From assembly GCA_012516855.1 (NCBI GenBank), contig JAAYWB010000018.1, forward strand, positions 1-36,020: 36,020 nucleotides of DNA. Direction: 5' to 3'. The stretch comes from Candidatus Cloacimonadota bacterium. GTDB lineage: Bacteria > Cloacimonadota > Cloacimonadia > Cloacimonadales > Cloacimonadaceae. The translations under genes and the position numbers were made by a program. A model generated the notes under the pieces. It was not told the DNA's origin and searched no databases. It saw only the letters and a program-made list of their open reading frames with translations. Positions 1-20,610 of the stretch are shown here, one piece after another; the stretch's first letter is position 1, and the number at the start of each line of letters is the position of its first letter.

Positions 1-2
1 GC

Positions 3-134
3 TTTGGCGGCCTGAAGAAACACTTTGGCTGGAGCAGATCGATCTATATGGGTTTGCAAAACACCTCGAACTATCTGCTTATGGGTGCCATAGCCTTCAA
101 CCTCAAGCGTGGCCTGAAGATTTTGCGAACCTGA
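3..134 (+). pseudogene. IS5-like transposase, C-terminal fragment
   Basis: The reading frame is open from the window edge and encodes 43 residues ending in a TGA. It contains the pattern KKHFGWSR, then YMGLQN, then AFNLKRGL, which resembles the C-terminus of IS5-type DDE transposases (H-F-G, a GL-x-N element, then a hydrophobic stretch ending in N-L-K/R). Only the 3' end lies in the window, so I cannot tell whether the element upstream is intact. A strong hairpin and an IS-end-like sequence follow, and that IS end recurs inverted at 20519-20610. IS5 is the best family match by eye; another DDE family is possible. Confidence 0.7.
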
Positions 135-148
135 GATAGGAGAGGTCT

Positions 149-180
149 GCCCGGATTTTTGGAAAAACCCAAAAATGGGC
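149..180. repeat. Hairpin directly after transposase stop
   Basis: An 8-bp perfect stem (155-162 with 169-176, ATTTTTGG/CCAAAAAT, loop 163-168) is extended by GCCC/GGGC (149-152 with 177-180) across a 2-nt bulge. It sits 15 nt after the transposase stop, inside the presumed IS 3' non-coding region. No T-tract follows, so it is not a classical intrinsic terminator. It could block transcription or be a transposase-related structure. Confidence 0.6.
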
Positions 181-215
181 CTCTTGAGAGGGCATTAGAG
201 AGGAAAAACCATCAA

Positions 216-308
216 AACAGACCAAAAAAGACCTGTCGGATCAGAAAAGCTTATGTGGAGTAGGGTGAATTCATATCAATTGTAGAGCGTGTGCATTATT
301 CAACAGTC
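216..308 (+). mobile_element. IS right-end region (copy A)
   Basis: This roughly 93-bp block lies downstream of the transposase fragment and ends in ATTATTCAACAGTCT. It is clearly homologous, at about three quarters identity by eye, to the reverse complement of 20519-20610. A recurring block ending in the same short motif after a transposase fits an IS terminus with its terminal inverted repeat. The partner left end is not in the window. Confidence 0.55.
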
Positions 309-507
309 TCCCTCTATAAACATGCGTATGAGAAAAACGGGGGTGGGCGAAAAAATCTTCAGAAAGCGCCAGAAACTTTTGCCAGCGGTATCTTCCGGTC
401 CGCCGATCTGATGAAAGCCATCGCCCAAAACGCCTACAAACCTGGTTCCTGAAAAACAAAGTGGAAGGAAAATCCTGCGCCTGCTCCAAAAAGCGCCGGA
501 ACAGGAA

Positions 508-684
508 ATGACCCCACAGCCGGCTGCTGTGCCTTTCGCACATGACCTCCCGGGAGTTCCGAGGCTGCATCGAATCACTGATCGAGAGGCAGGCTATCAT
601 CTGCCACAACCGGAGGCGGGAAATAACAAAATCGCCTTGCGATACGTGCTGAACCATGTCCTGAGCGACATAAACATCCAATGA
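508..684 (+). CDS. Unrecognised short ORF before a terminator
   Basis: A frame open from 415 has its first ATG at 508 and gives 58 residues, ending 10 nt before a strong intrinsic terminator. I do not recognise the protein. Its composition (Pro-, Arg- and His-containing, no membrane segment) is not convincing, and a longer opposite-strand ORF covers the same DNA. The only support is the correctly oriented terminator immediately downstream. It may be a decayed gene tail. Confidence 0.2.
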   Translation: MTPQPAAVPFAHDLPGVPRLHRITDREAGYHLPQPEAGNNKIALRYVLNHVLSDINIQ

Positions 685-694
685 AATATTAACA

Positions 695-719
695 GGCCGG
701 CACACGCCGGCCTTTTCTT
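695..719 (+). terminator. Rho-independent terminator
   Basis: A perfect 7-bp GC stem (GGCCGGC at 695-701, GCCGGCC at 706-712) has a 4-nt ACAC loop and is followed by TTTTCTT. This is a textbook intrinsic terminator for + strand transcription coming from the IS region or from the cryptic ORF ending at 684. Confidence 0.8.
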
Positions 720-727
720 CCCCAAGT

Positions 728-983
728 CAAATTAGCCAAATTAGCAAATTAGCACGTCTCATACCGGCGCCGGGGGGCTGGGATGACATGATTATGGAAC
801 TGGATATACAATATATTGGTGTATATATAGTTATATATATTATACACTAATTTAGTAGGTATTAGTAGTTAGTAGGTTTAATAGTATGTAATACAGTATG
901 TTGATGTGTCTCTGAGTCCAGGATGCCAAACAACTGCCCAGCGCCGGTGTGAGACGTGCTAATTTGCTAATTTCGCTAATTTG
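728..983. repeat. 256-bp element with 47-bp inverted arms, AT-rich core
   Basis: The left arm (728-774) and the reverse complement of the right arm (937-983) match at 44 of 47 positions, and one mismatch would be a G-U wobble in RNA. Each arm holds about three tandem copies of CAAATTAGC followed by a GC-rich part. The core between the arms is very AT-rich and contains a smaller hairpin (819-847, GTGTATA/TATACAC) and three TTAGTAG units (852, 862, 869). No ORF fits. The architecture resembles a MITE or a large cruciform/RNA structure. I see no clear target-site duplication. Confidence 0.8.
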
Positions 984-1092
984 CCCGGTAACAAATTCCG
1001 CAAATTCACAGACCCCGGTCTTGACCCCGGGATTTCTCCACTTTCGCCATCCCGGACTCTAGAAAGTATTAAAACACAATAACAGAGGAACG
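984..1092. other. Non-coding leader before small ORF
   Basis: This short stretch contains an imperfect direct repeat of GACCCCGG (two copies around 1012-1030) and then an AT-rich run leading to the ribosome-binding site of the 1093 ORF. No recognisable promoter stands out. Confidence 0.3.
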
Positions 1093-1548: not shown

Positions 1549-1622
1549 TTCAGGCTACGTCATCCCAGACGTCACCGAGCACGCGAGGTGACATTGATCC
1601 GGGATCCATAACGGGAAAAGAA
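1549..1622. other. Non-coding spacer with small inverted repeat
   Basis: The stretch between repeat A and the tandem repeat contains GTCACC and GGTGAC about 10 nt apart (around 1574-1595), plus REP-like CGTCATCCC and GGGATCC pieces. No gene is visible. Confidence 0.4.
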
Positions 1623-1765
1623 CTGGATTCCGGGTCAAGCCCGGAATGACGTAGGTTTAGGGTTGGGTGATGGTTGTTTCTGGATTCAGGGTCAAGCCAG
1701 GAATGACGTAGGTTTTAGGCTGGGTGATGGTTGTTTCTGGATTCAGGGGCAAGCCAGGAATGACG
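1623..1765. repeat. 57-bp tandem repeat with REP-like hairpin, about 2.5 copies
   Basis: Units start at 1623, 1680 and 1737 with an exact 57-bp period. Each begins CTGGATTC, then a run containing GTCAAGCC or GGCAAGCC, then GGAATGACG, so the first part of every unit folds as a hairpin (TTCCGGG/CCCGGAA in unit 1, TTCAGG/CCAGGAA-type in units 2 and 3). The linker contains GGGTGATGGTTGTTT. This resembles REP-like palindromes seen between genes in many bacteria, here in tandem. Confidence 0.8.
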
Positions 1766-20516: not shown

Positions 20517-20518
20517 AA

Positions 20519-20610
20519 GACCGTTGAATAATACATCCGCATGTGAATTGAGATGAATTCACCCTATTCCACATCATTTTTTCCGACCCAACAGGCTTTT
20601 TGGTCTGTTC
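20519..20610 (-). mobile_element. Solo IS end (inverted copy of 216-308)
   Basis: Reverse complement matches the IS end at 216-308 (shared blocks AACAGACCAAAAA, TAGGGTGAATTCAT, ATTATTCAAC). No transposase is adjacent, so this is a remnant. It directly abuts repeat B in the same relative order as at the left locus, where about 970 bp separates the two. Confidence 0.6.

Follow-up and report, generated by a model that had tools for sequence, protein, structure and literature searches.

A dispersed inverted-repeat element of a Candidatus Cloacimonadota bacterium is probably the stem-loop/iteron replication origin, and at the same time the fixed end, of a small mobile unit that resides in the chromosome and encodes a primase-helicase. 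The copy studied here (positions 728-983 of the window, by which we mean the whole 36,020-nt stretch of DNA analysed) is a relic or non-autonomous derivative, located behind a gene that has been cut down to its leader and C-terminus. Dispersal of such units was observed directly. An origin function is proposed because the unit combines features of the pRN1, P4 alpha and RSF1010 origins.

Anatomy and folding of the element

An earlier note on this DNA had described a 256-bp element with 47-bp inverted arms agreeing at 44 positions, and we confirmed this arrangement (Table 1). The arms (94% complementary) enclose a loop of 162 nt, and the left arm reads CAAATTAGC CAAATTAGC AAATTAGC. Also as described, the AT-rich core contains a hairpin of its own and TTAGTAG units; no ORF of at least 80 aa lies inside the element. 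A 271-nt strand covering the element folded into one rod of -122.1 kcal/mol, as compared with -68.9 ± 5.0 kcal/mol for 200 dinucleotide shuffles, none of which was as stable (z = -10.75); the core hairpin by itself was not out of the ordinary (z = -1.25). This fold score, together with conservation in the family (see below), ruled out a chance palindrome. A simple terminator was rejected as well: the element is too long, in agreement with the earlier judgement that it goes far beyond a terminator, and a separate terminator hairpin stands just ahead of it. The unit held in common extends past 728-983, as parts of about 648-1058, a region that takes in the terminator and further CAAATTC units beyond the right arm, recur in the source genome at two further contig ends.

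Table 1. Features of the window between the gene relic and the right flank of the element.
Feature	Positions	Strand	Basis
Remnant of the leader upstream of the primase-helicase gene	310..401	+	89 bp align at 80% identity with DNA preceding the DUF3987 gene of G000:C27
Degenerate 3' end of the primase-helicase gene, joined to the leader by internal deletion; stop codon 682-684	402..684	+	tblastn; identity to G000:C78
Terminator-like GC hairpin followed by a T run, after the gene	695..716	+	Read from the sequence; other copies have a similar hairpin separating gene and element
Left arm: three CAAATTAGC units and inner GC-rich arm	728..774	+	Sequence, inverted-repeat match, period test
AT-rich core	775..936	+	Family-conserved part about 802-896; model R1 matches 802-896 (E = 1.3e-11)
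Right arm, matching the left arm in inverted orientation at 44/47	937..983	-	Inverted-repeat match
Right flank common to the window copy and G000:C66, with two extra CAAATTC units	984..1058	+	Sequence comparison

By tblastn, window positions 446-613 matched residues 731-793 of the 817-aa protein encoded at G006:C8. The relic is 93% identical over 337 bp to that at G000:C78 (L068), which carries the same internal deletion. Downstream of these two relics the gene ends and elements differ, and the resulting mosaic junction near window position 645 suggests recombination between units. Window positions 1-309 are the 3' end of an insertion sequence, with a C-terminus that looks transposase-like by eye; its terminal stretch, ending near 309, recurs at L062 3-123, at window 20518-20609 (reverse) and in G000:C48. 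The leader of the relic seems to have been the target into which this insertion sequence went. Short dispersed repeats lie at window 1617-1650 and 1796-1870. Among them are a motif of roughly 30 bp, present on numerous contigs from across the genus, and a tandem stretch of the CACGAATTACACGAATT type, which also occurs near other units.

A conserved core with variable arms

The genome-wide search that the earlier note had proposed returned full or partial copies elsewhere in the source genome and in four further genomes from this genus; two very close ones in the source genome, at the ends of contigs C66 and C43, are 96-97% identical. In this Cloacimonadota genus, a model of the 95-nt core (R1, built from 15 copies) detected 29 copies spread over 6 of 13 genomes, and it matched nothing in the family's nine remaining genera; named records carrying the core are mostly Candidatus Cloacimonadota MAGs. 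Multi-copy in the source genome and conserved in relatives, the element is therefore not the single-copy sequence, absent from relatives, that would have refuted the note. Two matches to the core pattern in IMG/VR (L031 and L032), located between phage tRNA genes and without arms, were taken as chance.

From the outside inwards, a copy begins with about three 8-9-bp units that form the outer arm; a GC-rich inner arm follows, and the AT-rich core lies innermost. The core is well conserved, with a mean column identity of 86%. The outer-arm units vary by copy, being CAAATTAGC in the window and CAATTCTAT, AATCAATT, AATACTTCT and others elsewhere; over 19 copies, the outer 30 bp of the arm had an 8-9-bp period (z = 12.5 and 10.8 versus shuffles). 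The two arms within one copy were 95.6% identical (19 copies), whereas arms compared between copies agreed at 72% even with free overlap alignment; hence, the arms change jointly within a copy. Either selection that maintains a stem or a process in which one arm serves as template for its partner could account for this. At L075 9167-10028 and L079 2000-2900, two to three elements abut or interleave, and additional solo arms occur in tandem.

The earlier note had named three options: a MITE, an iteron cluster and a structured RNA. Of these, the picture of a repeated, dispersed, non-coding element with iteron-like arms stood; the classical MITE did not, and an RNA acting in one sense became unlikely, as set out below.

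The element adjoins a primase-helicase gene

The element adjoins the 3' side of a PrimPol-PriCT_2-DUF3987 primase-helicase gene, beyond the terminator of that gene, and the DNA ahead of many copies carries one common C-terminus at its end. A complete gene (G006:C8:10809-13262) encodes 817 aa with the domains BT4734-like_N, PriCT_2 and DUF3987. PrimPol models matched this protein with scores under the NCBI naming cut-off; primase motif I (hhhDhD), a P-loop-like GPS..SRKT and the C-terminus are conserved. The C-terminus gave weak matches to winged-helix models (DnaD_N, E = 0.079; phrog_2113, E = 0.013). No solved structures were found for the primase-helicase, and no relatives in phages, plasmids or viral contigs, the scan of viral sequences reaching close relatives only. 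The defence library returned only primase-type matches. At the other end of the unit, upstream of the gene, lies a divergent 149-aa ORF (L062 9922-10371), which is conserved and common to other units and has no family match in Pfam, PHROGs, NCBIfam or PADLOC.

Within the phylum, DUF3987 was found in 15 of 118 genomes, yet two genomes of this genus have 7 and 10 matches, consistent with proliferation. DUF3987 genes of the genus that have diverged to about 30-40% identity are also followed by a long inverted repeat with an AT-rich loop, whose arms are quite different. When DUF3987 gene ends were fetched by protein, an automatic test for an AT-rich loop flanked by an inverted repeat, no more than 1.2 kb away, was passed by 12 of 19, against 5 of 168 background windows; most of the loci that supplied these background windows had themselves been picked for containing the element. 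Similar AT cores were seen by eye at the gene ends L116, L126, L128 and L130, and no clear element was seen at L112, L121, L125 or L129. L128 is from a single-contig genome that we take to be Cloacimonas acidaminovorans. A different dispersed hairpin of similar 9-bp design, with arms of CACGCAGAT repeats, lies at L115 3661-3917, where it separates the two ORFs, for primase and DUF3987, into which a gene is split.

In all 11 core copies that have a gene remnant, the 3' end of the gene faces the element. The sense of the core relative to the gene is mixed, being the same in five of these copies and opposite in six, which renders a one-sense structured RNA unlikely. The location just 3' of the gene and the very stable fold would suit a long structured RNA or a regulatory 3' UTR of the primase-helicase gene, but a terminator precedes the element, solo copies occur without the gene, and the arm mismatches show no G-U bias toward one strand (8 versus 12). 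Moreover, no Rfam family scored above its gathering threshold, with two sub-threshold matches only. We regard an RNA function of this kind as very improbable.

Dispersal and insertion sites

Units were found at dispersed sites, some with internal deletions, some truncated at the 5' end and some consisting of nothing but the element. Two units of G006, at C8 and C7, align end to end (9896 to 13572 in L062 coordinates) and have unrelated flanks; in the C7 unit, most of the gene interior is deleted. At G000:C43, a block in which no more than the final 12 codons of the gene precede the terminator and element begins a few bases after the stop codon of an unrelated gene, and G002, G010, G012 and G006 have no element at the matching site. 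Contig C36 ends in an element copy whose last 141 bp also open C40 and C44, which then diverge; either a single element end is present in two contexts, or the assembly contains strain variants.

These loci bear on the possibility that decay alone shaped the family, the element being the origin or end of a formerly complete unit and the solo elements being left by gene erosion, with no movement in trans. Gene remnants of every length adjoin elements, and a G002 locus carries a gene remnant and an element while its G010 counterpart carries an element alone, both as decay would predict. The G000:C43 block, with its 12 codons directly behind a foreign stop codon, and the internally deleted C7 unit, at a different locus from C8, argue in the other direction, although deletion after insertion could also have produced either one. 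The non-hairpin end varies between units and gene remnants are cut at many different points, a pattern that fits both one-ended copying and plain decay. On balance, decay alone is a possible account, and clearly the less likely one compared with the origin of a mobile unit.

The earlier note had also suggested comparing empty sites in related strains. The flank comparisons revealed no target duplication, and none of them offered a clean two-sided empty site. Specifically, G010:C6, G010:C17 and G000:C16 yielded no clean target duplication; the corresponding sites of relatives showed remnants of arms, another element in the same position, or flanks that had diverged or were broken. The searches further took in the nrdD-mraZ site of G004:C184 and the flank of G006:C7, neither of which gave a clear comparison. 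We found no integrase or transposase that would account for insertion of the unit, nor an extrachromosomal, phage or plasmid form of it, the viral scan reaching close relatives only.

In its size, inverted ends, lack of ORFs and several dispersed copies, the element resembles a MITE, that is, a DNA transposon shortened by deletion, with terminal arms that the transposon's transposase recognizes. Unlike MITEs, it has no transposase parent, the linked gene encoding a primase-helicase instead, and it came without a target duplication in the flanks compared. Furthermore, its core is conserved while its ends are the least conserved part, which is the opposite of a MITE. A classical MITE, as entertained in the earlier note, is thus highly unlikely.

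A working model

We favour the replication origin of a mobile unit, which could operate as follows. The C-terminal domain of the protein, tentatively assigned as winged-helix-like, would bind the 8-9-bp arm units; the palindrome and AT-rich core would then be opened by melting or extruded, and the primase may begin DNA synthesis at the opened stem-loop. The copies so made would be inserted at other places. Solo elements would be mobilized in trans rather than left behind by gene decay.

A more far-reaching version, which we put forward as a doubtful proposition, is a bacterial transposable element that dispenses with a transposase: a primase-helicase would copy DNA from a stem-loop/iteron origin at the fixed 3' end, leaving the other end variable and giving rise to 5'-truncated copies and solo origins, with both arms renewed together and each lineage having its own arm code.

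DUF3987, a domain of unknown function, gains a concrete candidate origin that recurs behind successive genes. The copies also amount to a natural experiment, with one conserved core and many arm variants with matching halves, so that arm recognition and renewal become testable. If solo elements do move in trans, they would be non-autonomous elements driven by a replication protein and not by a transposase.

Comparison with known systems

The closest parallel is provided by the plasmids pRN1 and pRN2, with the primase-helicase ORF904 and a stem-loop origin downstream of it (PMC4234260). In the minimal replicon of pRN1, a repressor gene is accompanied by a gene for a primase-helicase whose C-terminus is a winged helix; a terminator and a 100-bp stem-loop follow this second gene, and the stem-loop is the sole part of the downstream region required for replication and functions when relocated on the plasmid (PMC4234260). 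Among pRN1 relatives, the structure of the stem-loop is kept and its sequence hardly (PMC4234260). The unit described here shares the fusion of a PrimPol-type primase to a helicase, the order of gene, terminator and long stem-loop, the conservation of structure over sequence and a small ORF on the other side of the gene. It differs in that the helicase region is DUF3987, not SF3; DUF3987 domains fused to primases are predicted helicases of mobile elements (PMC5862659). Further differences are that the unit is chromosomal and multi-copy, with no plasmid form found, that its arms consist of 8-9-bp repeats, that solo and truncated copies occur, and that its small ORF is divergent and belongs to no known family. 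Given the different helicase domain and the lack of a known plasmid form, we did not class the unit in the pRN1 family.

Phage P4 alpha, acting with the ori/crr iterons, is likewise a primase-helicase with a C-terminal DNA-binding domain (here predicted) and short origin repeats, which its winged helix binds (as described in PMC4234260). P4 differs in its Toprim-type primase, lacks such a long palindrome and is not known as dispersed solo copies. In RSF1010, the primase RepB' starts at stem-loops near iterons, ssiA and ssiB (as described in PMC4234260), much as we propose here; RSF1010, however, uses three separate proteins and short stem-loops and is a plasmid. We found no paper in open-access text that describes elements such as these. 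A primase-helicase with a stem-loop origin is a known kind of system; what is new is a form of it that is chromosomal, multi-copy and variable in its arms, and that includes solo and truncated copies.
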